NCBI GenBank assembly: GCA_026706845.1
Contig: JAPOXY010000205.1
Span: 1 to 46,373 of the forward strand
DNA length: 46,373 nt
Reading direction: 5' to 3'
Origin: Gemmatimonadota bacterium
Lineage (GTDB): Bacteria; Latescibacterota; UBA2968
Part shown: one piece after another, positions 21,519 through 34,619 of the stretch
Position numbering within the stretch: the stretch's first letter is position 1
Layout of the letters: every line of letters starts with the position of its first letter
Position numbers and translations under genes: made by a program
Notes under the pieces: generated by a model
What the model was told of the DNA's origin: nothing
Databases searched by the model: none
What the model saw: the letters and a program-made list of their open reading frames with translations, nothing else

Positions 21519-23654
21519 ATGCAAGATAGCCAAGTCAATCGCATTCCCAACTTTATCTGGGGCATTGCCGACGATGTGTTGCGAGATCTGTACGTGCGGG
21601 GCAAGTACCGCGATATTATCCTGCCGATGACGGTGATTCGGAGGCTGGATGCGGCGCTTGAGCCGACCAAGCAGGCTGTTCTCACTATGCGAACCAGACT
21701 GGACGAGGATGGCGTTATTGAGCAGGAGGCCGCTTTGAAGCAGGCTGCCGGGCACGCTTTTTACAACGCATCTCCATTTACTTTGCGCGATCTTCGCTCT
21801 CGCGCCAACAGGCAGCAACTTCGGGCTGACTTTGAGGCATATCTGGACGGATTTTCGTCCAATGTGCAGGATATTTTGAAGAATTTCGAGTTTCGCAATC
21901 AGATTCCGCGTTTGTCCGATGCCGATGCTCTCGGCGCGCTGATTGAGAAATTTCTGTCGCCGGATATCAATCTGAGTCCCTATCCGGTGGAGAATGGCGA
22001 TGGCTCTGTGCGGTTTTCCGGTCTGGATAATCACGCGATGGGTACGATTTTCGAGGAGCTGGTGCGGCGGTTTAATGAGGAGAATAACGAAGAGGCTGGC
22101 GAACACTGGACACCACGCGATGCGGTTAAGCTGATGGCAAATCTCATTTTTCTTCCGGTGGCTGACGAGATTGAGTCGAGTACTTATCTGCTCTACGATG
22201 GTGCTTGCGGTACGGGTGGTATGCTGACTGTCGCAGAGGAGACGCTTCGAGATCTCGCCCAGGAGCGCGGTAAGCAGGTTTCCACGCATCTTTATGGACA
22301 GGAGATCAATGCTGAGACCTATGCCATTTGCAAGGCGGATCTTTTGCTGAAGGGCGAAGGCAGCGCAGCGGATAATATTGTCGGAGGTCCGGAATATTCG
22401 ACGCTTTCCAATGATGCTTTCCCTTCCCACAAGTTTGATTTTATGCTCAGCAATCCGCCTTATGGCAAGAGTTGGAAGAATGATCTGGCGCGTATGGGGG
22501 GCAAGAGCGGCTTATCTGATCCGCGATTTCTTATCGCTCACAACGGCGACGCGGAATATTCCCTGCTCACCCGCTCCAGCGATGGGCAGATGCTGTTCCT
22601 CGCCAATCTGCTTTCGAAGATGAAGCGCGATACCACGCTGGGCAGCCGCATTGCCGAGGTTCATAATGGAAGTTCCTTGTTCACTGGTGATGCCGGGCAG
22701 GGGGAGAGCAATATCCGCCGTTGGATTATCGAGAATGACTATCTGGAGGCGATTGTCGCGCTGCCGCTCAATATGTTCTACAATACGGGTATTGCCACGT
22801 ACATCTGGGTGTTGACCAATCGCAAGCCAGCGCATCGGCGCGGCAAGGTGCAACTTATCGACGCGACCGAGTGGTACAGTCCTTTGCGTAAGAATCTGGG
22901 CGCCAAGAACTGCGAGTTGTCCAATGACGACATCCGCCGCATTTGCGATGCTTTTCTCGCGTTTGAGGAGACGGAACAGTCGAAGATTTTTCCCAATAAG
23001 GCATTTGGCTACTATAAGGTGACGGTTGAACGACCACTGCGGCTCGCTGTTGATTTGTCGCCAGAGCAACGGACGCGATTTCGGGATGCTTGCCGAGAAG
23101 CAAAGGAAGAGCCGCTCGCCGATGTGGTTGATCTGGTGGCGGAGACTTTGGGCAACGGTCCCCATCTCGATTTCAACAGTTTCATGGATGCGGTTGCCGC
23201 AGAGGCTTCTGAGCAGGGCGTTAAGCTGATCGCCAAGCGGAAAAAGCTGTTGCAAACGTCGCTGGCATTCCGGGACGAAGCCGCCGAGCCAGTGATTAAG
23301 AGGGTCCACAAATTGGGCAATAGGGAGCCAAATCCGATTCGCGGTCTGGTAGAGACGACTGTGAATGACCAGTGCGTTATCGTTGAATATGAGCCAGACA
23401 GCGAGTTGCGAGATACCGAACAGGTCCCCTTGCTCGACGAGGGCGGTATTGAGGGTTTCTTGCGCCGCGAGGTGTTACCTTATGCTCCAGATGCATGGTA
23501 TGTCCTGACGAGTGTCAAGATTGGCTATGAGATCAGCTTTACCCGCCACTTCTACAAGCCACAACCTATGCGGTCAAGAGAAGAGATTCGCGCTGATATA
23601 ATGGCGTTGGAGCGAGAGAGTGAGGGGGTACTGGCAGAGATTATTGGGGAGTAA
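21519..23654 (+). CDS. hsdM: Type I restriction enzyme modification subunit (N6-adenine methyltransferase)
   Basis: The 711-aa protein is a type I HsdM: an N-terminal helical domain (IPNFIWGIADDVLRDLYV to about residue 160), then the gamma-class methyltransferase core with motif I DGACGTGGM (D227) and motif IV N312-P-P-Y. It then continues with NDYLEAIVALPLNMFYNTGI. A long C-terminal region (residues about 480-711) contacts specificity and other subunits and makes the protein longer than the ~500-aa EcoKI-type HsdM. It methylates adenines at the site read by HsdS. GAGAGGAC precedes the ATG. It heads the island. The next gene is not hsdS but an inserted methyltransferase-ATPase pair. Confidence 0.94.
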   Translation: MQDSQVNRIPNFIWGIADDVLRDLYVRGKYRDIILPMTVIRRLDAALEPTKQAVLTMRTRLDEDGVIEQEAALKQAAGHAFYNASPFTLRDLRSRANRQQLRADFEAYLDGFSSNVQDILKNFEFRNQIPRLSDADALGALIEKFLSPDINLSPYPVENGDGSVRFSGLDNHAMGTIFEELVRRFNEENNEEAGEHWTPRDAVKLMANLIFLPVADEIESSTYLLYDGACGTGGMLTVAEETLRDLAQERGKQVSTHLYGQEINAETYAICKADLLLKGEGSAADNIVGGPEYSTLSNDAFPSHKFDFMLSNPPYGKSWKNDLARMGGKSGLSDPRFLIAHNGDAEYSLLTRSSDGQMLFLANLLSKMKRDTTLGSRIAEVHNGSSLFTGDAGQGESNIRRWIIENDYLEAIVALPLNMFYNTGIATYIWVLTNRKPAHRRGKVQLIDATEWYSPLRKNLGAKNCELSNDDIRRICDAFLAFEETEQSKIFPNKAFGYYKVTVERPLRLAVDLSPEQRTRFRDACREAKEEPLADVVDLVAETLGNGPHLDFNSFMDAVAAEASEQGVKLIAKRKKLLQTSLAFRDEAAEPVIKRVHKLGNREPNPIRGLVETTVNDQCVIVEYEPDSELRDTEQVPLLDEGGIEGFLRREVLPYAPDAWYVLTSVKIGYEISFTRHFYKPQPMRSREEIRADIMALERESEGVLAEIIGE

Positions 23655-23810: not shown

Positions 23811-24857
23811 ATGCCACTAAAAAATAACTCAAAGAAAATTCACGCAGTGGATCTTTTTTGCGGTATTGGTGGATTGACAAAAGGTCTCGATTTGTCTGGT
23901 ATTAGCGTCAAGGCAGGTTTTGATATTGACCAGTCGTGCCAATACGCATATGAGGCAAATAATCCTCAATCAAAATTTTTCACCACCGATATTCGTGACA
24001 TTCAATTCAGCGATATTGCTCCACATTACAAGGACGCGAATATTGTGGTGATGGCCGGTTGTGCGCCTTGCCAGCCTTTTTCAGCGCATAATCAAAATAG
24101 AAAGACGCAAAATTTTCGAACGGATGATTGTTCTTTGGTCGGGGAATTTGCTCGTCTTATTAGAGAGGGCTTGCCCGACTTAGTCACTATGGAAAATGTT
24201 CCTGGGCTCGCCAAACACGAAGCATTTGACGAATTTCTTGTAATGCTCAACGACTTGGGTTACGAGTTGGACTATGATGTTTTGTCATGCGCGGATTACG
24301 GTGTTCCACAAAATAGAAAACGCCTTGTTCTATTAGCGTCCAGGCTGGGTGAAATTTCTTTGCCTTGCCCAATGGGAGACAAAAAGACTGTTGCCGACTT
24401 CATCCAACACTTGCCTGCGATTAAAGCCGGAGAAGCCTGTCCCGATGACCCTGCTCATATTTCGATGGCATTGTCCGAGAAAAACAAATTACGAATTAGT
24501 CAATCAAAACCAGGAGGAACATGGCAGGATTGGGACGAGGATATTATCAACGATTGCCATCGTAAGGCATATTATTCATCGTCCTATGGCAGAATGCGTT
24601 GGGATGCGCCCGGGCCAACCATCACTACACAATTCTGTTATTACAGCACTGGACGATTCGGGCATCCTGAACAGGACCGGGCTATATCAGTTCGTGAAGC
24701 TGCATTGTTACAAACTTTCCCACCCGATTACAAATTCGCAGAGTTCGGACACCCCGTTATCATAACCAAAACGGCGCGGTACATTGGCAATGCTGTGCCG
24801 GTCAAACTGGCTGAAGCCATTGGCAAATCACTTATAGAGGCAGCAAATGTCCAATAG
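23811..24857 (+). CDS. DNA (cytosine-5) methyltransferase
   Basis: This 348-aa C5 methyltransferase has motif I VDLFCGIGGLTKGL, motif IV AGCAPCQPFS with the nucleophile C87, motif VI ENVPGL, motif VIII-like VPQNRKRLVL, and motifs IX-X at SVREAALLQTFP and YIGNAVP. The target-recognition region between VIII and IX is short. The gene is visibly AT-rich against hsdM and the ribosomal genes. AGGAG precedes the ATG, and a promoter-like TTGACT lies near 23717 in the 156-bp gap after hsdM, so it may have its own promoter. Its stop overlaps the ATPase start by 11 bp, indicating a tightly coupled pair. It probably protects sites that the ATPase-nuclease would attack. Confidence 0.94.
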   Translation: MPLKNNSKKIHAVDLFCGIGGLTKGLDLSGISVKAGFDIDQSCQYAYEANNPQSKFFTTDIRDIQFSDIAPHYKDANIVVMAGCAPCQPFSAHNQNRKTQNFRTDDCSLVGEFARLIREGLPDLVTMENVPGLAKHEAFDEFLVMLNDLGYELDYDVLSCADYGVPQNRKRLVLLASRLGEISLPCPMGDKKTVADFIQHLPAIKAGEACPDDPAHISMALSEKNKLRISQSKPGGTWQDWDEDIINDCHRKAYYSSSYGRMRWDAPGPTITTQFCYYSTGRFGHPEQDRAISVREAALLQTFPPDYKFAEFGHPVIITKTARYIGNAVPVKLAEAIGKSLIEAANVQ

Positions 24858-26892
24858 CAGATATAGAATGAGTATCAGTTTGAATGTGCTTAACCACTTG
24901 GGATTGAACCTGTATAGCAATACGCCAGCGGTGCTTGCCGAAGTAATTGCCAACGCTTGGGATGCCGATGCTACTGAAGTAAAAGTTGATTTCAATATTG
25001 CACAGAAAACGATTACCGTTACCGATAATGGTCACGGAATGGACGTGGATGACATCAACGATAAGTATCTGCATGTTGGGTATCAAAAGAGGGGGGATAC
25101 GTCCGATTATCACACGCCTGGTGGTAGAAAACCGATGGGTAGAAAAGGTATTGGGAAGTTGTCTTTGTTTTCCATTGCGAAAAAAATCTTTGTCTATAGC
25201 CTCAAAAAAGGAGGTGAGAACGAATCCTTTTTAATGGATTCAGACGAGATTAAAAAGGCTATACAGAATGAAGACCCGTCATCGCCAGGTGAATACGAAC
25301 CTGAACAAGTGAAGTTTGACGTTGACATTGAGAAACAGGGGACGATCATAAAAATTACGGAACTGAAGAAGCTGCGATTGACACAGGCTTCAATCAATGG
25401 GCTTAGAAAGAGAATTGCCCGTAGATTTGGAATTATCGGTGAGCAGTGGGATTTTCGTATCTTCGTGAATGGCGAAGAGGTAAACTTTTCTGACCGAGAT
25501 TATTTTCACAAAGCTCGTTTTATTTTTCAATATGGCGCCTATGACTATGCTCAATATTGCCAAAATTTAGACACGGATAACGACACGGGCGACAAGATGA
25601 GCTTTGAACGCCCCTGTCGTTTCGATTCGAAGGGCAATGCCACCGAAGAAGGGGTACACAAAATTAGCGGCTGGATCGCCATCGCACGTCACTCTAACGA
25701 TTTGGATGACGGACAAGGGCAGGAAGATAACCTTAACAAAATCACGATTGTTGTACGAGGTAAAGTGGCACAGGAAGATATTTTGAATGAACTCCGAATG
25801 GGATCAATGATAAGCAAATTCATCTACGGAGAAATTTACGCTGATTTTCTTGATGAAGACAGAAAAGAGGACATTGCCACTTCCAGTCGCCAAAGACTTG
25901 TTGAAGATGACCCGCGCTATATTGCAACTAAGAAGTTCATTGATAATGAAATTAAGCACATACGGACAGAAACGGATAAACTTAAAGAAAAGAAAGGATT
26001 AGAACAGGCGATTACGTACAACCCCTATATCAAAGAGTGGTATGATGAATTACGGCCGCCTCACTTGCAAGAACCAGCAAAGAAAATTTTTGCTGCTATC
26101 GATCAAGCAGGAGTAGATGAGGCACATAAACAGAATTTCTACGCTGATGGAGTATTACTTTTTGAGTCACTAAAGATGAACTATGCCCTGGAGAAATTGG
26201 AAACCATTGATGCGTCCAACTTAGACGAATTTCTTAGTTATTTGTCTGATGTTGATGCTATAGAAGCAGCTCGTTATCACGAGATAGTTCAAGAACGACT
26301 CAGTATAATCCGCAAATTACGAGAGCAGGTTGACAAAAATGTTATTGAAGCGTTGTTACGGGATTACATATTTGATCACTTATGGCTTCTTGATCCTGCC
26401 TGGGAACGCGCAACCGAGTATAAACACATGGAACAAACTCTTCAAAGAGTCGTGGATGGAGTCACCCAAAAAAATAAGTTTGTAAGAACAGATATCAGAT
26501 ACCGTAGGGTTTCCGGCGCACATGTGATTATCGAACTAAAAAGGCCTGAGAGACTTTTGGAAAAGACAGAAATCGAGTCTCAGATCCGTAAGTACATTGC
26601 TGCCGTTGGCAACGAATTGAAAAAGGACCCTAATGAGAGCCATCTCCTTATTGAATCATTTTGCATTGTAGACAGACTGCCTCAGGGATGGGAGGATCGT
26701 GAAACCCGAAGAACCGACGAAGATTCATTGAAACTTTATCGTATTAGAGTTCTCACTTATACCGAACTAATTAACAATGCTAACTCAGCATACTCGAAGT
26801 TTATTCAGGCATCCGAGTCAGTAACAGAACTGCGTACTCTGCTTGATAACATCCGGTCATACAAAGCAGAATCAAATGATCGCGAACCTTAA
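24847..26892 (+). CDS. GHKL (MutL/MORC-like) ATPase with C-terminal PD-(D/E)XK-like nuclease domain
   Basis: The 681-aa protein carries a complete Bergerat ATP fold at its N terminus: the N box with E32...NAWDADA, the G1 box DNGHGM (60-65) and the G2 box GRKGIGKLSLF (98-108). A middle helical region includes DHLWLLDPAWERATEY. Near the C terminus D549 and E563-L-K565 in HVIIELKRP fit the D...(D/E)xK core of restriction-type nucleases. Comparable MutL/MORC-like ATPases fused or linked to nucleases and DNA methyltransferases are known from bacterial restriction systems (described by Iyer, Abhiman and Aravind). Overlaps with the C5 methyltransferase upstream and hsdS downstream place it in one operon. 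It may be the restriction partner of the C5 methyltransferase. The nuclease assignment rests on motif pattern only. Confidence 0.8.
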   Translation: MSNSRYRMSISLNVLNHLGLNLYSNTPAVLAEVIANAWDADATEVKVDFNIAQKTITVTDNGHGMDVDDINDKYLHVGYQKRGDTSDYHTPGGRKPMGRKGIGKLSLFSIAKKIFVYSLKKGGENESFLMDSDEIKKAIQNEDPSSPGEYEPEQVKFDVDIEKQGTIIKITELKKLRLTQASINGLRKRIARRFGIIGEQWDFRIFVNGEEVNFSDRDYFHKARFIFQYGAYDYAQYCQNLDTDNDTGDKMSFERPCRFDSKGNATEEGVHKISGWIAIARHSNDLDDGQGQEDNLNKITIVVRGKVAQEDILNELRMGSMISKFIYGEIYADFLDEDRKEDIATSSRQRLVEDDPRYIATKKFIDNEIKHIRTETDKLKEKKGLEQAITYNPYIKEWYDELRPPHLQEPAKKIFAAIDQAGVDEAHKQNFYADGVLLFESLKMNYALEKLETIDASNLDEFLSYLSDVDAIEAARYHEIVQERLSIIRKLREQVDKNVIEALLRDYIFDHLWLLDPAWERATEYKHMEQTLQRVVDGVTQKNKFVRTDIRYRRVSGAHVIIELKRPERLLEKTEIESQIRKYIAAVGNELKKDPNESHLLIESFCIVDRLPQGWEDRETRRTDEDSLKLYRIRVLTYTELINNANSAYSKFIQASESVTELRTLLDNIRSYKAESNDREP

Positions 26893-28234
26893 ATCCTATC
26901 CCCACTACAAATCCTCCTGTGTGGAGTGGCTCGGTGATGTGCCAACGCATTGGGAAGTGCGGCGGTTGAAGCGCGTCGCATCATTGAATCCAAGTAAGAC
27001 CGAATCGCAGGCATTTCTGACGGCAGACATGCCAGTAATATTTCTACCTATGGAACGAGTGGGGGCGGACGGAAAAATAGATGAAAAGATGGTGTCTGCC
27101 TCCAGTGTTTGGAATGGCTTTACTTATTTTAGACGAGATGATGTTCTCGTTGCCAAAATCACCCCTTGCTTTGAGAATGGCAAGGGTGCGTGTCTTGATT
27201 CCTTATCTACGGTAATCGGTTTTGGATCAACTGAATTTCACGTTTTAAGATCGAGCCCCTCAGTTTTACCACAATTTCTGTATCGACTTACCGCCCTTGC
27301 AGAATTTCGGCATTCTGGTGCTGAGGAGATGACCGGAGCAGCAGGTCAACAACGAGTACCACAGGCATTTGTGGCAAACTATCCCCTTCCTCTCCCACCC
27401 CTCTCCGAACAAACCGCTATCGTCCGCTATCTTGATCATACTGACGAGCGCATCTGCCACTACATCAGCAGCAGAGAGCGGCTCATCGAACTGTTGGAGG
27501 AATATCGGCAGGCGGTCATCCACCACGCAGTCACGCGCGGCCTTGATCCCGATGTGCGTCTCAAGCCATCGGGTGTGGAGTGGCTGGGCGATGTGCCAGC
27601 GCATTGGGAGGTGAGGCGATTTAAAACTATAGGGAAGAACTTTACGAATGGAACTACTGCTGAACAGTTGGCGACAGGTATCTCCGATTTCCCCGTTTCA
27701 AGAATCGAAACTATATCTACAGGTCAGATTACTTATTCAAAAGTGGGCTACTTGAATGAATCTTCAGTTATCAAATCCTTTTATTTACAGCCAGATGATT
27801 TTCTCATTAGCCATATCAACAGCTATGAGAGAGTTGGTAATTCTGCCAGATACAAAGGTGAACGTGCTCTGCTACATGGGATGAATTTGATACGTATTAC
27901 GCCACTAAAGGTCATTGTCCCGAATTACCTTGAATACTTACTAAAATCTTCACTGTTTATTGGGAGTATGCAACGGGCCTGCAAGCCAGCTATTAATCAA
28001 GTGTCTGTTACAACGGCAGCAATTAAAGCAATACAATTTCCTCTCCCACCCCTCGCCGAACAAACCGTCATCGTCCGCTATCTCAATAAGGCCACCGCCG
28101 ATATTGACGCTGCCATTGACCGCGCTCGGCGAGAAATTGAGTTGCTGGGTGAATACCGTACGCGGTTGATTGCCGATGTGGTTACAGGCAAAGTAGATGT
28201 GCGCGAGGCAGCGGCTGAGTTGTCCGCTGTTTAA
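26876..28234 (+). CDS. hsdS: Type I restriction enzyme specificity subunit
   Basis: The 452-aa protein has two target-recognition domains separated by conserved helices. The halves are recognisable as repeats: VEWLGDVPTHWEVRR (about residue 17) recurs as VEWLGDVPAHWEVRR (about 237), and PLPPLSEQTAIVRYL (about 172) recurs as PLPPLAEQTVIVRYL (about 389). Each half reads one part of a split DNA site. The start is the ATG at 26876, which overlaps the ATPase gene by 17 bp; an upstream in-frame TTG is less likely. It serves both HsdM and HsdR, which lies 3.2 kb downstream. The near-identical DNA of the paired repeats would allow domain exchange by recombination. Confidence 0.95.
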   Translation: MIANLKSYPHYKSSCVEWLGDVPTHWEVRRLKRVASLNPSKTESQAFLTADMPVIFLPMERVGADGKIDEKMVSASSVWNGFTYFRRDDVLVAKITPCFENGKGACLDSLSTVIGFGSTEFHVLRSSPSVLPQFLYRLTALAEFRHSGAEEMTGAAGQQRVPQAFVANYPLPLPPLSEQTAIVRYLDHTDERICHYISSRERLIELLEEYRQAVIHHAVTRGLDPDVRLKPSGVEWLGDVPAHWEVRRFKTIGKNFTNGTTAEQLATGISDFPVSRIETISTGQITYSKVGYLNESSVIKSFYLQPDDFLISHINSYERVGNSARYKGERALLHGMNLIRITPLKVIVPNYLEYLLKSSLFIGSMQRACKPAINQVSVTTAAIKAIQFPLPPLAEQTVIVRYLNKATADIDAAIDRARREIELLGEYRTRLIADVVTGKVDVREAAAELSAV

Positions 28235-28254
28235 TGAACAGAAATAGAGGTTAT

Positions 28255-28830
28255 ATGGACAATCACGCAGTTTTCAAGATGACGCCCGGACGCGCCGCGC
28301 TGGTAGGGCTGATGGACTGTTATGTGCGCGGCTTGCTGGATCCATTCGTGACGCTGCTGGAAGTGCATAAGCTCATGTATTTTATGCAGGTCGCAGGCGA
28401 GCCGTTGAGATTGAAATTCGTTAAAGCCACGTATGGGCCTTATGCTAAGAACCTCCGGCATGTTTTGAACGCCATTGAGGGACATCTGGTGTCCGGCTAT
28501 GCAGATGGTGGCGATGCGCCCGATAAGGAATTGGAATTGGTTCCAGGCGCGCTTGAAGATGCCCATGCGTTTCTCGAAAACACACCTGAAACGCAGGCGC
28601 GCTTTGAAAGAGTTTCCGCGCTTATTGAAGGGTTCGAGTCGTCGTTTGGCCTGGAATTGCTCTCTACGGTGCATTGGATCGCCAGCGGGGAGGAGATATT
28701 GGACTTTGACGACATAGTGAATCACACTTACGTCTGGAGCGAGAGAAAGAAGCAGTTTTCACAGCGTCAGATTAAGATTGCATTTGATGTTTTGTCAGAG
28801 AAGGACTGGATTGTGCATTCCGATGTGTGA
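28255..28830 (+). CDS. Stand-alone DarG C-terminal-domain-like protein (macrodomain missing)
   Basis: The 191-aa product runs TPGRAALVGLMDCYVRGLLD, LLEVHKLMYFMQ, YGPYAKNLRHVLNAIEGHL, SGYADGGDAP and FGLELLSTVHWIAS. From memory this matches the region following the macrodomain in DarG, the antitoxin of the DNA-ADP-ribosylating toxin DarT. The macrodomain that normally precedes it is absent, because hsdS ends just upstream. No DarT gene is present in the window. In DarTG the C-terminal domain alone is reported to block DarT by mimicking single-stranded DNA, so a lone copy could still inhibit a toxin. The start at 28255 follows AGAGG; an ATG at 28234 overlapping the hsdS stop is possible but lacks a ribosome site. 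It could instead be a distant DUF4065-type protein. Confidence 0.65.
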   Translation: MDNHAVFKMTPGRAALVGLMDCYVRGLLDPFVTLLEVHKLMYFMQVAGEPLRLKFVKATYGPYAKNLRHVLNAIEGHLVSGYADGGDAPDKELELVPGALEDAHAFLENTPETQARFERVSALIEGFESSFGLELLSTVHWIASGEEILDFDDIVNHTYVWSERKKQFSQRQIKIAFDVLSEKDWIVHSDV

Positions 28831-29311
28831 GACAGCGCATCCAGGAAGGACATTTCATAAATAAAAATTAAAGAAAACGAGTCTAAAAAAGAGTATTATA
28901 TAAAAAGAAAATATATAAATATTTGTTTTAAAAAGATTTGTCCTTTAATAAATTTTAGAATATTTTGAGAGTTTATTAAAGGATTTAGCAAAGTCACGTT
29001 GTTTTTCAAGCTCTCGATTGACTATGAGCCTGAATCTTTTAACTTTGTTTGACGGTTGCTTGACGGTTGTTTGATAGAAAATCCAAAAAATGATTCGGCA
29101 GAGCAGATTCGATTTTGTAACTTATTGTTATACAAATATTTACTGTTTTGGAATTTGTTTGATGGTTGTTTGATAGAAAATCCGAAAAATGACTCGATGG
29201 AGTAGATGTAATTTTGTAACTCATTGTTATAAAATTACTTACTGTTTTGGAATTTGCTTGATGGTTGTTTGATGGAAGCCAAATGATCACCGACACCACA
29301 GAGCGCGTTTG
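28831..29311. other. AT-rich gap holding repeat array 1
   Basis: About 480 bp without a convincing gene. The first 200 bp are very AT-rich with no clear hairpin terminator for the hsdS unit. From 29048 the tandem array described separately begins. A minus-strand frame stays open through the array only because 99 is a multiple of three. Confidence 0.6.
29048..29290 (+). repeat. Repeat array 1: 99-bp tandem units with 11-bp iterons
   Basis: Copies begin at 29059, 29158 and 29257, an exact 99-bp period; the third copy is truncated after about 34 bp. Each copy starts with 11-bp iterons, CTTGACGGTTG or TTTGATGGTTG then TTTGATAGAAA, with an extra iteron at 29048. A spacer follows with ATTTTGTAAC and TTGTTATACAA or its variant, then TACTGTTTTGGAA. 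Since 99 is nine times 11, all iterons sit on one helix face. The last iteron runs straight into the 9-codon hsdR-start remnant at 29283. Possible roles are operator array for the XRE protein, promoter region, or recombination site. Confidence 0.85.
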
Positions 29312-29312
29312 A
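29283..29312 (+). pseudogene. Remnant of an hsdR start (nine codons)
   Basis: ATG at 29283 encodes Met-Ile-Thr-Asp-Thr-Thr-Glu-Arg-Val and then TGA. The real hsdR at 31398 begins Met-Thr-Thr-Asp-Thr-Thr-Glu-Arg-Gly. The codons differ mostly at synonymous positions. In both places the start follows the last iteron of an array (TGATGGAAGCC and TGACTGGAACC) within about 11 bp. This suggests the piece is an old duplicated or displaced hsdR 5' end. It is short, so chance resemblance is not fully excluded. Confidence 0.55.
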
Positions 29313-29479
29313 TGTCTATTGCAGGGCGTCCCGATATTGGATATACTCTCACAGACTTGAAGAACCATAGTGAGGCCGCGCGAAATAATTTGAGGGTGGA
29401 GGTCTTTGAAGGGGCTATGGAAGAATTGGGTGATGTGACGATTGTAGCAGAGGTTAATGATAGAGGTTGTAACCCATGA
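29312..29479 (+). CDS. 55-aa unknown protein, coupled to XRE-ImmA gene
   Basis: The frame starts MSIAGRPDIGYTLTDLKNH, is soluble and acidic toward the end (VEVFEGAMEELGDVTIV) and finishes NDRGCNP. Its TGA overlaps the next ATG as ATGA, the usual sign of translational coupling in an operon. The family is not recognised. Small acidic proteins ahead of XRE-ImmA genes could be antitoxin or inhibitor components, but nothing in the sequence proves this. The ribosome site is weak (GAGCG). The start codon overlaps the stop of the hsdR remnant (TGATG). Confidence 0.5.
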   Translation: MSIAGRPDIGYTLTDLKNHSEAARNNLRVEVFEGAMEELGDVTIVAEVNDRGCNP

Positions 29480-30642
29480 GTAGCCGACGTTTGCAAATAA
29501 CATTGCAGCCTGCTGTGTTGCGGTGGGCGCGGGAGCGGGCGCGCATTGATGCCGAGCAACTGGCGGATAAGATGCAGGTGAAGCCAGAGCGCGTGTTGGC
29601 GTGGGAACGCGATGGCAGGATCAGTATTGCCCAGGCAGATAAACTTGCCCAGCGTACGCATACCGCTCTGGGCTTGCTATACTTAACAGAGCCGCCCAAA
29701 GATCTCTTGCCAATACCCGATTTTCGTACCCGAGACGATGATCTGCAGCCGAGTGTCAATCTCCTCGATACTATTTATCTGATGCAGCGTCGTCAGTCCT
29801 GGATGCGCGACGAGTTAATCGGGGAGGGTGCCAGACCGCTGAGCTTCATTGGAAACTATGAGATAGGTGGCGATCCCCTGCAAGTCGCCCGTGCAATGCG
29901 TGATGCACTCCAACTTACTGACGATTGGGCTGCATCTGTATTTACCTGGTCTGATGCCCTTGGGCATTTGCGGAGTAGAGCCGAGGATGCCGGTGTGCTG
30001 GTGGTTTTCAATGGCATTGTGGGAAATAATACAAGCCGCAAACTCGATCCGGATGAATTTCAAGGCTTTGCTCTCGTAGATGAGTATGCTCCGTTGGTCT
30101 TTGTGAATAATGCCGACTTCAAAGCAGCGCAGATGTTCACCCTCGCTCACGAACTCGCACATCTTTTTGTTGGAGAGACTGGGGTATCCAGTTTTGAACA
30201 TCTGAAGTTCGATTCTAATACCACAGAGAGATTTTGTGACCAAGTAGCGGCGGAATTTTTAGTGCCAGCAGAGGAGTTGCGAGCCTTTTGGCCTACAGCT
30301 GAGCGGACAAGCGATCCTTATCAACCTGTTGCACGTCAATTCAAAGTGAGTTCTCTCGTAGCCGCACGTCGAGCGCGCGATCTCGGCTTGATTGACCCGA
30401 TTGCCTTTTTCAAATTCTATGACGAATATACAGACAGGGAATGGCACAGCAGTCAGCAAAGTCAAGCAAGTGGTGGAAATTTCTGGAATACTCAGAAATG
30501 GCGCATTGGCACTCGATTTGGTAGTGCAATCTTCCGAGCAGTTAAAGAAGGCCGTCTGCTCTATCGCGAAGCGTACAATCTCACCGGTCTGAAGGGAGAA
30601 ACTTTTGAAAATATGCGAGACAAGATGGAGATACAGGTGTGA
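29476..30642 (+). CDS. XRE-type HTH domain fused to ImmA/IrrE metallopeptidase
   Basis: The 388-aa protein has an N-terminal XRE helix-turn-helix (residues about 8-65, ending VLAWERDGRISIAQADKLAQ). A central domain follows, then an M78-family ImmA/IrrE zinc peptidase with H225-E-L-A-H229 in TLAHELAHLFVG and a downstream DQVAAEFLVP. Such proteins bind their own promoter and cleave a repressor or partner after a signal, as ImmA does in ICEBs1. It is coupled upstream to the 55-aa gene and downstream to a PIN gene (4-bp overlap). The XRE domain is the natural candidate to bind the iterons on either side. Confidence 0.9.
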   Translation: MSSRRLQITLQPAVLRWARERARIDAEQLADKMQVKPERVLAWERDGRISIAQADKLAQRTHTALGLLYLTEPPKDLLPIPDFRTRDDDLQPSVNLLDTIYLMQRRQSWMRDELIGEGARPLSFIGNYEIGGDPLQVARAMRDALQLTDDWAASVFTWSDALGHLRSRAEDAGVLVVFNGIVGNNTSRKLDPDEFQGFALVDEYAPLVFVNNADFKAAQMFTLAHELAHLFVGETGVSSFEHLKFDSNTTERFCDQVAAEFLVPAEELRAFWPTAERTSDPYQPVARQFKVSSLVAARRARDLGLIDPIAFFKFYDEYTDREWHSSQQSQASGGNFWNTQKWRIGTRFGSAIFRAVKEGRLLYREAYNLTGLKGETFENMRDKMEIQV

Positions 30643-31160
30643 TAAATCAGGCTCCATCCTTGTTCGTGCTGGATACAAGTGTTTTTATACAGGCTCATCG
30701 CCTCTATTACGCGCAAGATCTATGTCCGGGATTCTGGGATAGTCTGACGCATTATTGCAGCGAGGGGCGGGTGTTAAGCATTGATCGCGTTCGTGACGAA
30801 ATGCTTAACAACCAGGATCAACTATCTGAGTGGGTTAATCAAGCACCAGATAGTCTTTTTGTATCATCCGCGGAACCAGAGGTTGTAAATGCTTTTACGG
30901 ACATGATGGACTGGGTACAGGGGAATGAGCAGTTTCAACTTGAAGCAAAAGAGGAGTTCGCAGGCGTAGCTGATGGATGGCTTGCGGCCTACGCGAGGGT
31001 TCACAGCGCGGTTGTGGTTACTCAAGAGGTATATAGTCCAGGCGTGAGGAAAAGGGTTCCTCTGCCAAATGTATGTAGAGAGTTCGGTGTTGATTACCGA
31101 GACACTTTTGAGATGTTGCGAGAGCTTAAGGTCAGTTTCGACTGGAGACGTTCTCCATGA
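30639..31160 (+). CDS. PIN-fold protein of the DUF4411 family
   Basis: The 173-aa protein has the PIN N-terminal strand LFVLDTSVF with the first acidic metal ligand D12, a middle SIDRVRDEML segment with conserved acidic residues, and GVADGWLAAYA plus VVTQEVYSP for the remaining ligands. PIN domains are Mg-dependent ribonucleases, most often toxins of toxin-antitoxin pairs. DUF4411 genes are commonly found directly after XRE-ImmA genes, as here. It starts with GTG overlapping the upstream stop by 4 bp. The toxin role is inferred from family and context. Confidence 0.85.
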   Translation: MINQAPSLFVLDTSVFIQAHRLYYAQDLCPGFWDSLTHYCSEGRVLSIDRVRDEMLNNQDQLSEWVNQAPDSLFVSSAEPEVVNAFTDMMDWVQGNEQFQLEAKEEFAGVADGWLAAYARVHSAVVVTQEVYSPGVRKRVPLPNVCREFGVDYRDTFEMLRELKVSFDWRRSP

Positions 31161-31184
31161 CTACTTTGACCTGAGTTGCTGCTC

Positions 31185-31397
31185 GGTAATTGACGGGTAA
31201 TTGATGGGTAATTGACACATAGGGAACCGGGAAACTGTGAATTTTACTTAACTGATTTATTTTACTCAAATTATGTTAATTGATGGGTAATTGACTGGTA
31301 CTTGACTGACGAGCAGAGATATGAGATCGTATTTTTCGTAAATTATTGAATATACAATAGTTATTTTACTTGACTGGTACTTGACTGGAACCTCCTG
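31185..31397 (+). repeat. Repeat array 2: 90-bp units with 11-bp iterons, upstream of hsdR
   Basis: Three iteron clusters begin at 31185, 31275 and 31365, exactly 90 bp apart. Within clusters the step is 11 bp: GGTAATTGACG, GGTAATTGATG, GGTAATTGACA; then GTTAATTGATG, GGTAATTGACT, GGTACTTGACT; then TTTACTTGACT, GGTACTTGACT. The spacer of the second unit contains GAGCAGA and TATTGAATATACAATA, recalling GAGCAGATTC and TATTGTTATACAAATA in array 1. The last iteron ends 11 bp before the hsdR ATG, which has no Shine-Dalgarno sequence. A promoter/operator role is likely; recombination between arrays is also possible. Confidence 0.85.
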
Positions 31398-34382
31398 ATG
31401 ACCACTGATACAACTGAACGCGGTTTAGAAGATCGCATTTGCGAGATGTTGGCTGGTAGGGCGGATGAATCGGGTACGGGTGATGTAGGGGAGCGTCCGG
31501 CTGCCTATAGCGCGGGTTGGCGTTATGGGGATCGCGAGGATTATGACCGCGAGTATTGCGTGGATCTGGCGCAGTTGACGGCTTTTCTGGTGGCGACGCA
31601 GCCGGAGATTGCTGAGGCGCTTTCTCTGGAGAGCGATAATCCAACGCGACGCCGGTTTCTCGCCCGGTTGAAGAGTGAGGTTGGCAGGCGTGGGATTGTC
31701 GATGCGCTTCGCAATGGGGTCAAGCACGGGCCGCATGATATTGCGCTTTTTTACGGTGCGCCGTCGCCGGGCAACCGTCGGGCAGCAGCGCTTTACGAGC
31801 AGAATCGCTTTTCGGTTACGCGCCAGTTGTCGTATAGCAATGCCAATAAGCGGCTCGCGCTGGATCTTGCGCTGTTTATCAATGGCCTGCCGGTGGCGAC
31901 TTTTGAGTTAAAAAATAGCCTTACTAAGCAGACGGTGGCAGATGCGGTTGAGCAATACAAACGCGACCGTGATCCGAGGGAGGAACTTTTCCGCATTGGT
32001 CGTTGTTTGGCTCATTTCGCGGTGGATGAACACGAGGTGATGTTCTGTACGCATCTCAAGGGTAAGTCGTCCTGGTTTCTGCCTTTTAATAAGGGTTGGA
32101 ATGACGGTGCTGGCAATCCGACCAATCCCAATGGCCTTAAGACCGATTATTTGTGGCAGGAGGTTCTGACCCGGCAGAGTTTGACGGATATTATCGAGAA
32201 TTACGCTCTGCTGGTGGAGTCTGCTGACGCGCAGACCGGGCGCAGGTCTCGGACGCAAATTTGGCCGCGCTATCACCAGTTGGATGTGGTGCGGAAGTTA
32301 CTGGCTGATGCTGTGGAGAAGGGGGCGGGGCAGCGCTATCTCATTCAGCATTCGGCGGGTAGTGGTAAGTCCAATTCTATCGCCTGGTTGGCACACCGTC
32401 TCATTGGGCTGGAAAAGGGCGGTGAGATGGTTTTTGATTCGATTATTGTTGTGACTGACCGGATTATTCTGGATAGGCAGATTAACGATACGATTCGGCA
32501 GTTCGCGCAAGTGGGGGCGACTGTCGGGCATGCCGAAAATTCTGGCGATCTGCGTCGCTTTATCGGCGAAGGAAAGAAAATTATTATCTCTACGGTGCAG
32601 AAGTTTCCGTTTATCCTGGACGAGATTGGCGCAGAACATCGGGGGAGCCGCTTTGCCATCATTATTGACGAAGCGCATTCCAGCCAGGGCGGGCGCACGT
32701 CTTCGGCGATGGCGCAGGCTCTGGGCGACCATGAGGACGGGGATGATGAAGATACGTTTGAAGATAAGATTAACCGGATTATTGAGCAAAAGCGTCTGTT
32801 GACCAATGCGAGCTATTTTGCTTTTACTGCTACGCCGAAGAATAAGACGCTGGAGTTATTTGGCACACCATCGCCGCAGCCCGATGGCACGACAAAGCAT
32901 CGGTCTTTCCACGGCTATGCGATGAAACAGGCGATTGAGGAGGGTTTCATTCTGGATGTGCTGGGTAATTATACGCCGGTAAAGAGCTACTACCATCTCG
33001 CCAAGACGATAGAAGATGATCCGGAGTTTGATACAATAAAGGCGAGAAAGAAGCTCATCAGCTATGTGGAAACACACAGTCATGCGATTCGCCTCAAAGC
33101 GGAGATTATGGTTGACCACTTCCACGAGCAGGTGCTGGCACCGCGCAAAATTGGGGGACAGGCACGGGCTATGGTTGTAACTGGTGGTATTCAGATGGCG
33201 ATTGAATACTATCACGCTATCCGCAATTACCTGAACGAGCGCAATAGTCCGGACAAAGCTATTGTTGCTTTTTCTGGCGAGGTGGATTACGGAGGTGAGA
33301 GGGTGAGTGAATCGTCGTTGAACGGTTTTCCGTCATCGCAAATAGCCAATAAGATTCAGGAAGATCCCTATAGGCTTCTGGTCTGCGCGGATAAGTTTCA
33401 GACGGGCTATGATGAGCCTTTGCTGCATGTGATGTACGTGGATAAGGTGCTTTCCGGTATTAAGGCCGTGCAGACTCTTTCGCGTCTCAACCGCGCCCAC
33501 CCTGATAAGCGCGATACGTTTGTGCTGGATTTCTACAATGACGCTGAGATGATAAAGGATGCTTTTGCTGATTACTACCGCACGACTATTTTAGCGGATG
33601 AAACCGATCCGAACAAGTTGCACGATCTCAAGGCCACGCTGGATGGCCGACAGGTTTATTCCGATGAGCAAGTCCACAATGTAGTGGCGTCGTATTTGAA
33701 GGGCGATGACCGTGGGGCTTTTGATCCCATTCTGGATGAGTGTGTGGCGATCTATCGCAGTGAACTGGATGAGGATGGGCAGGTTGAATTTAAGGGGAAT
33801 GCCAAAGCCTTTGTACGCGCATACAACTTTTTGTCTCAGGTGCTTCCCTACGCGAATGTGGAGTGGGAACAGCTTTCCATTTTTCTGAATTTTCTCGTTC
33901 CCAAGTTGCCGACGCCCGTTACTGAAGATTTGTCGCTGGGTATTGAGGGTGCTATTGATATGGATAGCTATCGCGCGGAGAAACAGGCGACGATGCAAAT
34001 TCTGCTGTCCGATGAGGATGCCGAGATCGATCCGGTGCCCACAGGTGGTGGCGGTCATAAGCCAGAGCCGGAAATGGACCGGCTTTCCAATATTCTCCGG
34101 TCGTTCAACGATCTTTTTGGGGATATTCCGTGGACCAATGAAGACCGCATTCGCAGGATGATTACCGAGGATGTTCCGAAGATGGTTGATTCGGATAGTG
34201 CCTATCGCAATGCGCGAGAACATTCAGATGAGCAGAATACGCGCATTGAACACGATAAGGCGTTGGAGAAAGCGATTATGGCTCTGCTCTCGGACGATAC
34301 TGAACTTTACAAGCAGTATTCCCAGAATGAAGCGTTTAAGCGTTGGCTGGAAAATAGCGTGTTTGAACTGACCAATCGCTAA
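31398..34382 (+). CDS. hsdR: Type I restriction enzyme endonuclease/translocase subunit
   Basis: This 994-aa HsdR has the N-terminal nuclease D156...E170-L-K172 in LDLALFINGLPVATFELKN. The superfamily II translocase core follows: motif I HSAGSGKSN at about 317-325, motif II D424-E-A-H, motif III FAFTATP and motif VI QTLSRLNRAHP. A helical C-terminal region contacts the methyltransferase. It pulls DNA by ATP hydrolysis and cuts it when the site is unmethylated. It lies 3.2 kb from hsdS, separated by the DarG-like gene, two repeat arrays and the XRE-ImmA/PIN cassette, so its expression is probably independent of hsdMS. Confidence 0.96.
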   Translation: MTTDTTERGLEDRICEMLAGRADESGTGDVGERPAAYSAGWRYGDREDYDREYCVDLAQLTAFLVATQPEIAEALSLESDNPTRRRFLARLKSEVGRRGIVDALRNGVKHGPHDIALFYGAPSPGNRRAAALYEQNRFSVTRQLSYSNANKRLALDLALFINGLPVATFELKNSLTKQTVADAVEQYKRDRDPREELFRIGRCLAHFAVDEHEVMFCTHLKGKSSWFLPFNKGWNDGAGNPTNPNGLKTDYLWQEVLTRQSLTDIIENYALLVESADAQTGRRSRTQIWPRYHQLDVVRKLLADAVEKGAGQRYLIQHSAGSGKSNSIAWLAHRLIGLEKGGEMVFDSIIVVTDRIILDRQINDTIRQFAQVGATVGHAENSGDLRRFIGEGKKIIISTVQKFPFILDEIGAEHRGSRFAIIIDEAHSSQGGRTSSAMAQALGDHEDGDDEDTFEDKINRIIEQKRLLTNASYFAFTATPKNKTLELFGTPSPQPDGTTKHRSFHGYAMKQAIEEGFILDVLGNYTPVKSYYHLAKTIEDDPEFDTIKARKKLISYVETHSHAIRLKAEIMVDHFHEQVLAPRKIGGQARAMVVTGGIQMAIEYYHAIRNYLNERNSPDKAIVAFSGEVDYGGERVSESSLNGFPSSQIANKIQEDPYRLLVCADKFQTGYDEPLLHVMYVDKVLSGIKAVQTLSRLNRAHPDKRDTFVLDFYNDAEMIKDAFADYYRTTILADETDPNKLHDLKATLDGRQVYSDEQVHNVVASYLKGDDRGAFDPILDECVAIYRSELDEDGQVEFKGNAKAFVRAYNFLSQVLPYANVEWEQLSIFLNFLVPKLPTPVTEDLSLGIEGAIDMDSYRAEKQATMQILLSDEDAEIDPVPTGGGGHKPEPEMDRLSNILRSFNDLFGDIPWTNEDRIRRMITEDVPKMVDSDSAYRNAREHSDEQNTRIEHDKALEKAIMALLSDDTELYKQYSQNEAFKRWLENSVFELTNR

Positions 34383-34435: not shown

Positions 34436-34619
34436 CGGATAGGTGGGAACTCGACACGGATGGGGGGGAGTTAAGCGCGGATGGGAGGGAGACGGATACA
34501 GGGGAGCTCGGCACGGATATAGAGGAGCTCGGCAACGGATACAGGGGAGTTCGGCTCGGATACAGGTAAGCTTCACTCGGATACAGGTATGCTTAGCCCG
34601 GATACCGGTATGCTCCTGG
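34436..34619 (+). repeat. Minisatellite: nine units of about 21 bp after hsdR
   Basis: Units begin with CGGAT at 34436, 34457, 34478, 34493, 34514, 34536, 34557, 34578 and 34599. Seven are exactly 21 bp, one is 15 and one 22. The common core is CGGATACAGG-(G/T)-(G/A)-AG-(C/T)-TC. The units drift gradually from left to right, as expected from slippage and unequal exchange. The step equals two helix turns and seven codons, so frames stay open on both strands without being genes. It lies between the hsdR stop and its terminator. Function unknown. Confidence 0.9.

Follow-up and report, generated by a model that had tools for sequence, protein, structure and literature searches.

Accessory cassettes, iteron arrays and hsdR start remnants in the hsdS-hsdR interval of a type I restriction operon

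The interval between hsdS and hsdR of a type I restriction operon was analysed in a 46,373-nt stretch of DNA (the window; contig C205) from a Gemmatimonadota bacterium, and gene and array coordinates are given as positions of this full window. Two iteron arrays bracket a predicted toxin-antitoxin pair in this interval, and the first array is followed by the dead start of an hsdR gene. The best explanation, which we hold to be reasonably probable, is a displacement by one-sided homology at the array and gene start of the hsdS-hsdR slot, with arrays that come from Schlafen genes.

According to this explanation, accessory defence genes would accumulate in the hsdS-hsdR interval as in a slot, and each arrival would bring a unit made of one or more cassette genes, an iteron array and the start of the next gene. 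The right side of the unit would recombine by homology with the array and/or hsdR and the left side would join illegitimately, no more than 8-40 codons into the resident gene, whereby the old array and the stub of the old gene would remain 5' of the new cassette. Subsequent array-array crossovers, again by homology, would rearrange cassettes, fuse them or remove them. The arrays would represent the 3' end of Schlafen-type (SLFN_AlbA_2-HATPase_c_4-winged-helix) genes and act as an operator, bound by Schlafen, that controls the next gene. In the window, the Schlafen genes would have been lost, array 1 and the hsdR stub would mark an earlier state as its scar, with ImmA-PIN-array 2-hsdR as the later unit.

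Two iteron arrays around a predicted toxin-antitoxin pair

The iteron pair motif TTGAYNGNTNNTTGAY matches the window nine times, always inside the two intergenic arrays, against 0.06 matches expected from dinucleotide shuffles; a slightly longer iteron motif has one further match elsewhere in the 5.46-Mb genome. Tandem Repeats Finder reported 11-bp periods in the arrays and, additionally, a 99-bp period in array 1. The arrays bracket the XRE-ImmA and PIN genes, as the original prediction, made from the letters of the window, had described, and they are related sub-types, not identical copies. That prediction had also each array running into a start that encodes Met-(Ile/Thr)-Thr-Asp-Thr-Thr-Glu-Arg, and the quoted junctions were recovered exactly, after array 1 at 29284-29313 (TTTGATGGAAGCC-AA-ATGATCACCGACACCACAGAGCGCGTTTGA) and after array 2, leading into hsdR at 31398-34382 (CTTGACTGGAACCTCCTG-ATGACCACTGATACAACTGAACGC). 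The features of the operon are as follows:

21519..23654, + strand: hsdM, type I methyltransferase (Pfam N6_Mtase, 1.8e-50, and HsdM_N)
26843..28234, + strand: hsdS, specificity subunit (Pfam Methylase_S; PADLOC Specificity_I)
28234..28830, + strand: C-terminal part only of DarG, directly 3' of hsdS (PADLOC DarG model positions 155-328; NCBIfam DarG 158-338)
28975..28986, + strand: ATTAAAGGATTT site of a second (AlbA-b-type) iteron family, between the DarG C-terminal part and array 1
29049..29276, + strand: iteron array 1, TTGAYGGTTGY, units 99 bp apart
29284..29313, + strand: dead hsdR start, nine codons (MITDTTERV, then a stop)
29319..29347, + strand: promoter-like TTGCAG-17-TATACT of the cassette, sigma70-like and conserved (comparison with relatives)
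29476..30642, + strand: XRE-ImmA (HTH_3 and Peptidase_M78, Pfam), predicted antitoxin/regulator
30639..31160, + strand: PIN-like DUF4411, predicted toxin RNase (Pfam PF14367, 2e-50)
31190..31388, + strand: iteron array 2, TTGAYKGGTAM, units 90 bp apart; chimeric, made of sub-types A2a (GGGTAA) and A2b (GGTAC) with the iteron register kept across the joint
31398..34382, + strand: intact hsdR, 994 aa, starting about 10 nt past the last iteron (Pfam HSDR_N, SWI2_SNF2)

The XRE-ImmA (XRE-M78) gene overlaps the PIN-like gene by 4 nt, which is the layout expected of an XRE-ImmA/PIN pair, and the two are predicted from their sequences to form a toxin-antitoxin pair with a putatively toxic PIN/DUF4411 protein. 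For comparison we used 63 other genomes of the same phylum (handles G; their loci, L, are read in the hsdR-forward orientation). A 55-aa gene claimed upstream of the pair turned out not to be a gene: as an antitoxin, the open reading frame at 29309-29479 was ruled out by indels and by stop codons that come early in G031, G033 and the two copies of G032, and it overlaps the conserved TTGCAG-17-TATACT. The DarG of the window stands without DarT and without its macrodomain; a complete DarTG is present in G031 (L038, 9743-11488).

The hsdR stub and cassette turnover in relatives

The window stub MITDTTERV resembles the HsdR start MTTDTTERG, and this nine-codon match is not significant on its own (E about 0.5 in a 50-kb search space). 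Longer stubs of 17-37 codons, hsdR-like by tblastn, were found after arrays in relatives: MITDTTECSLEDRICDL in G032 (L040, E 2.8e-5) and MITDTTEHGLKDRICDMLISRADKLSTND in G034 (L098, E 9.5e-11) follow the same array type, and G038 has, at a second site, MTTDTTERGMEERVCAMLTHRADPPDAADVRER behind an AlbA-b array (L298, E 1.8e-11). It is these longer scars, of 17-37 codons and of the same kind, that identify the window stub as a dead hsdR start; the claim of a copy of hsdR ended after nine codons thus owes its support to the relatives and not to the nine codons themselves. The stub is identical to the hsdR start of G050 at 21/24 nucleotides and to that of its own hsdR at 18/24, and five of the six differences from the latter fall at third codon positions, so that the stub descends from a different, formerly coding hsdR allele. 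Neither of the two observations that would have spoken against the prediction was made in the form stated, be it a first array and remnant with no link to hsdR or the loss of the stub from close relatives that bear the cassette: the stub is kept, in decayed form, in those relatives that have the ImmA cassette.

Across loci the stubs measure 9-37 codons and the joints are imprecise, once including a fragment of hsdS. This is the case of G034, whose 27-codon stub runs into a 3' piece of hsdS, followed by Schlafen, as expected from a donor DNA of the order 'hsdS-Schlafen-array-hsdR.

Homologues of hsdR with 80-97% identity were found within the genus, and in eight same-genus relatives the hsdS-hsdR site holds one to three array-bounded cassettes each. 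These cassettes are ImmA with or without PIN, HigBA, Schlafen/AlbA_2 and HNH, and they stand before hsdR, before a BrnA-fused hsdR or before no hsdR; their Pfam domain calls comprise SLFN_AlbA_2 with HATPase_c_4, HNH_5 and an OLD-like TOPRIM. The differing cassettes and joints of the relatives support the view that a toxin-antitoxin cassette was placed before hsdR, leaving an array and an hsdR start behind. In G033 and G029 the order is that of the window (A1, stub, ImmA-PIN, A2, hsdR, with DarG upstream), the locus of G029 lying at a contig start. G031 carries DarT and full DarG between hsdS and hsdR and an ImmA with only the tail of PIN, and its array-brnT interval contains a further hsdR fragment (codons about 68-78, by eye). 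Three cassettes stand in a row in G032, namely HigBA, ImmA and a 587-aa Schlafen; its HigB (PF09907) and short partner lie behind fused ImmA, hsdS and DarG fragments. The locus of G030 contains a Schlafen and an HNH cassette together with the beginning of another Schlafen cassette, and a separate contig of this genome bears a composite array preceded by an OLD-like ATPase. The Schlafen cassettes of G034, G035 and G037 are accompanied by no hsdR match at E<=1e-60.

The hsdR of G029 and G033 has an N-terminal extension of 66 residues. This extension follows a full BrnT toxin gene (PF04365) in G031, and it is for this reason read as BrnA fused to HsdR. In all, the 66-residue extension is in frame in four relatives (L037, L038, L039, L040), with 1059 aa for the BrnA::HsdR reading, and in G034 a segment similar to the BrnA-like extension is fused to a Schlafen fragment.

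The junction between stub and cassette is largely cassette-specific, with two forms for Schlafen-a. The ImmA unit occurs with the same junction behind DarG or behind HigBA-A2a, and the Schlafen-a and Schlafen-b junctions each occur behind DarG or PIN'-A2a. The same cassette with the same stub behind different left neighbours indicates exchange at or near the arrays, and the relatives also have composite arrays in which A2a, A2b and A1 stretches are joined without a break in iteron register. The idea of the arrays as exchange sites is supported in that different cassettes and joints meet at them, whereas the imprecise joints argue against a neat site exchange.

Beyond the genus, a locus of another family (G020, L102, 10850-11000) has an array, ImmA-PIN and then a likely hsdR C-terminal remnant, so that the array-ImmA-PIN-hsdR arrangement may extend to it; an hsdR start fused to an hsdR end after ImmA-PIN was considered there and dropped, only the C-terminal remnant being likely (by eye). 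Both G046 and G049 also have the same iteron array directly 5' of an hsdR that belongs to an unrelated family, with 22-23% identity (L104, 8450-8574; L106, 8479-8524). Lone two-iteron matches 5' of type IIG-like genes in G022, G023 and G050 (L107-L109) may be due to chance, control counts being similar, and were left unused.

Schlafen genes and the probable origin of the arrays

A scan of about 85,000 species with a pattern of three iterons in register gave, among the matches listed, many phyla, in several of which the array lies directly 3' of a Schlafen-like gene (Caldilineaceae, Arenicellales, Bifidobacterium, Spirochaetaceae, KSB1, Deltaproteobacteria and Rhodothermales); the orders hsdM-hsdS-Schlafen-array-hsdR and hsdM-DarG-array-hsdR were also sometimes met among them. 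Independently of the iteron pattern, 22 Schlafen homologues were picked by protein search, and the motif was found within 260 nt 3' of 20/22 of them versus 9/299 other genes (Fisher, 7e-23); a de novo repeat test 3' of Schlafen was significant as well, more weakly than the motif test. A different iteron, AGTAAAGGATTT, stands behind Schlafen-b genes, and in G002 TTAATAAAAAC occurs four times. An element belonging to hsdR only was ruled out, because arrays follow Schlafen genes before unrelated genes, and the arrays are most likely the 3' terminal part of Schlafen/AlbA_2 cassettes, not a property of hsdR.

The history of single sites was consistent with this. In genus g11, the site 5' of an oxidoreductase gene has neither Schlafen nor array in G040, G042, G043, G045 and G047, holds Schlafen-array immediately 5' of the ribosome-binding site (RBS) in G041, G046 and G048, and keeps only the last 8-22 Schlafen codons with an array or a decayed array in G049 and G050; single-array scars occur in G049 and on a second G048 contig. 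The five array-less sites, set beside those with Schlafen-array, indicate that the array is here the cassette and not the target. In G046 and G048 a Schlafen scar with its array is followed on its right by a new Schlafen-array, so that a re-insertion comes after the old array; it has duplicated the array in both genomes and in G048 the start of the gene as well. At one site of Caldilineaceae we found an intact Schlafen-array, a broken Schlafen-array and an array alone as alternative states. CRISPR-like repeats (TGTTCCCCGCAGGCGCGGGGATGAACCG) were observed left of the Schlafen scar at the oxidoreductase site (L335 and L332).

Direct duplications surround Schlafen in G038 (178 bp, 97%), G048 (207 bp, 89%) and G046 (145 bp, 94%). 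Upstream of Schlafen, a stub of the start of the next gene was found at 6/34 loci versus 0/198 mismatched pairs (p 7e-6), the former including three related closed Roseobacter plasmids, in which stub and following gene are only 51-54% identical.

The Schlafen cassettes have the bacterial Schlafen domain order, SLFN_AlbA_2 and HATPase_c_4 (Pfam) followed by a C-terminal winged helix (model), and fall into no named NCBIfam family. The AlphaFold model of the L122 Schlafen (mean pLDDT 78) has this winged helix at its C terminus and is matched by DIP2311 (3lmm) and by the N-domain of SLFN13 (Foldseek, 5.5e-5 for the latter). The array units are spaced by 79, 87-90, 98-100 and 110-111 bp, with a best period of 10.5 bp, which fits a protein that would be bound on one face of the DNA helix. 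An RNA element or a type III-like RNA antitoxin was rejected, given folding z-scores around zero for single units and no pairs by RNAalifold. The arrays are most likely operators of the next gene, which Schlafen would bind via its predicted winged helix.

Annotated plasmids also show Schlafen inside defence operons of other kinds: an Aliarcobacter plasmid has it between hsdM and hsdS, and in a Desulfosarcina plasmid its neighbours are a DUF1156 gene on one side and a PLD-type anti-phage gene on the other. A 21-bp tandem repeat at 34492-34614 of the window has a translation like the repeat region of a 644-aa Schlafen gene; such a gene stands downstream of hsdR in G029, and the window repeat is probably its remnant.

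Competing explanations and related systems

One-sided homologous and illegitimate displacement is preferred to a neat site exchange on the grounds of the imprecise joints, with stubs of different length (9-37 codons) and an hsdS donor fragment, of the divergence between stub and gene, and of the conserved right side. The right-hand anchor, array plus hsdR or another next gene, is conserved and homologous, and the left-hand joint is non-homologous with remnants of the displaced gene (stubs, the hsdS fragment, and the next-gene stubs at 6/34 loci). The stub/array pattern is not an assembly product, as G037 and G038 are single-contig genomes.

Several points weigh against the displacement by one-sided homology. 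Schlafen ownership of the window arrays comes from comparison only, because DarG and ImmA-PIN also precede arrays, and the 11-bp iterons within clusters partly force the quantisation of unit spacing. Synteny breakpoints inside arrays (30/95 versus 11.5 expected, p 4e-7) serve as supporting evidence only, an enrichment that may be inflated because the arrays are alike and alignment ends are drawn to them. Most loci come from metagenome-assembled genomes, yet G037, G038, G049 and G050 are single-contig and the plasmids closed, and the six loci with stubs count as fewer than six independent cases, three of them being related plasmids. The window cassette (about 92% nucleotide identity to G029) and hsdR (about 93%) diverged jointly and the window event is therefore old, older than the split of the species that share the ImmA-PIN cassette; the window's own lineage shows no donor, circle or intermediate. 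Finally, deletion following tandem duplication would give similar stubs.

The latter is the main rival: two copies of [accessory gene-array-hsdR] would have arisen by unequal crossing-over and the first hsdR been deleted down to its first codons, with no import at each step. Variable stub lengths of 9-37 codons are what deletions would give, and the duplicated fragments of G032 (the N terminus of ImmA, the tails of hsdS and DarG) and the 178-bp direct repeat of G038 are in line with it. Successive units hold different genes, however, and not copies, and the window stub nearer to the G050-type hsdR than to its own, together with the diverged Roseobacter stubs, indicates that the second unit came from elsewhere. 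We regard tandem duplication with deletion as an unlikely, though serious, account.

More speculatively, Schlafen and its 3' array could form a very small mobile cassette whose array would be both operator and landing site, with Schlafen binding the phased iterons and promoting recombination into the start of the next gene, thereby carrying toxin-antitoxin and defence genes into hsdR and similar slots in several phyla; to this we assign a small likelihood. We consider it improbable that the array is an attachment site, with Schlafen-array as a minimal mobile element moved in an integron-like manner by a dedicated recombinase or by Schlafen itself. The array as cassette terminus, the five sites without both Schlafen and array, the solo-array scars and the arrays that flank Schlafen on both sides in several phyla would suit this, but the Schlafen-array unit contains no recognisable integrase or transposase, the left joints are imprecise and carry fragments of neighbour genes, and the duplication of the next-gene start reaches beyond the array. 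HATPase/Schlafen domains are not known to have recombinase activity. That the arrays are mere hsdR operators, copied passively and giving apparent exchange as a by-product of shared sequence, is very improbable by itself although compatible with one-sided displacement. In its favour, the last iteron abuts the RBS or start of the next gene, the units are helically phased and arrays also stand 5' of the unrelated hsdR family; against it, arrays follow Schlafen where the next gene is not hsdR and cassette-specific stubs occur behind different neighbours across arrays.

Sequential displacement has been proposed for arrays of type VI secretion system (T6SS) effector-immunity modules in Vibrio cholerae (PMC5361080). 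As in those modules, one side would be homologous and the other illegitimate, and remnants of displaced genes pile up in order; the T6SS remnants are complete immunity genes, with the conserved anchor upstream of them, whereas in the hsdR slot the anchor is downstream (array and hsdR) and the remnant consists of the first codons of a restriction gene behind an iteron array. Insertion of restriction-modification (RM) genes with long target duplication (Nobusato et al., 2000; Furuta et al., 2010; as cited in PMC3031569) is similar, to the extent summarised there, in that RM-linked genes lie between direct duplications of the target, which were found around Schlafen, and differs in that the duplicated stretch is here the cassette's iteron array plus the start of the next gene, also at non-RM genes. 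DarTG2 has been described between hsdS and hsdR together with RptR, and the slot termed a potential hotspot (PMC12255303); G031 has DarTG in this same slot, and the window only the C-terminus of DarG. The TAGCTA repeats to which RptR binds lie upstream of rptR and of hsdM, and the accessible part of that account mentions neither an array that separates the slot from hsdR nor hsdR stubs or stacked cassettes. Bacterial Schlafen-histidine-kinase-like-wHTH (winged helix-turn-helix) proteins linked to BREX have been catalogued in defence loci (PMC12839542, where a 2025 preprint on phage defence by bacterial Schlafens is cited), and the array-owning cassette gene shares their domain layout; an iteron array is not mentioned in the accessible part of that source. 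Chromosomal integrons likewise have ordered gene cassettes parted by repeated elements; unlike in integrons, the array units show no attC-like folding (no consensus RNA fold) and the joints are imprecise, and no integrase was found among the annotated slot genes, the rest of the genome not having been searched for one.

The literature searched, with many subscription papers and preprints lying outside it, gave no account of a Schlafen 3' iteron array, of gene-start stubs or of array borders, and no link of Schlafen to the hsdR slot. The array border of the slot and its Schlafen origin thus seem to be new, while the slot had been described before as a potential hotspot. Defence islands are known to gather systems, and the entry of single genes into an intact restriction operon is rarely visible; here its traces are kept as arrays, gene-start stubs, stacked cassettes, array-less sites and solo-array scars. 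The Schlafen-array coupling provides a sequence signature with which such slots can be found in any genome, and the winged helix of the model, taken with the 11-bp iterons, suggests a possible DNA-binding role for proteins that are currently being connected with phage defence.

Two further observations concern the restriction genes of the window's genome. A second hsdR fragment, 44% identical, is present in it (G000:C155:5-2086), and the type I operon contains, between hsdM and hsdS (23811-26892), a complete-looking type II system composed of a C5 methyltransferase and a restriction enzyme of the BbrUII/HgiDII family (NCBIfam, 2e-205).

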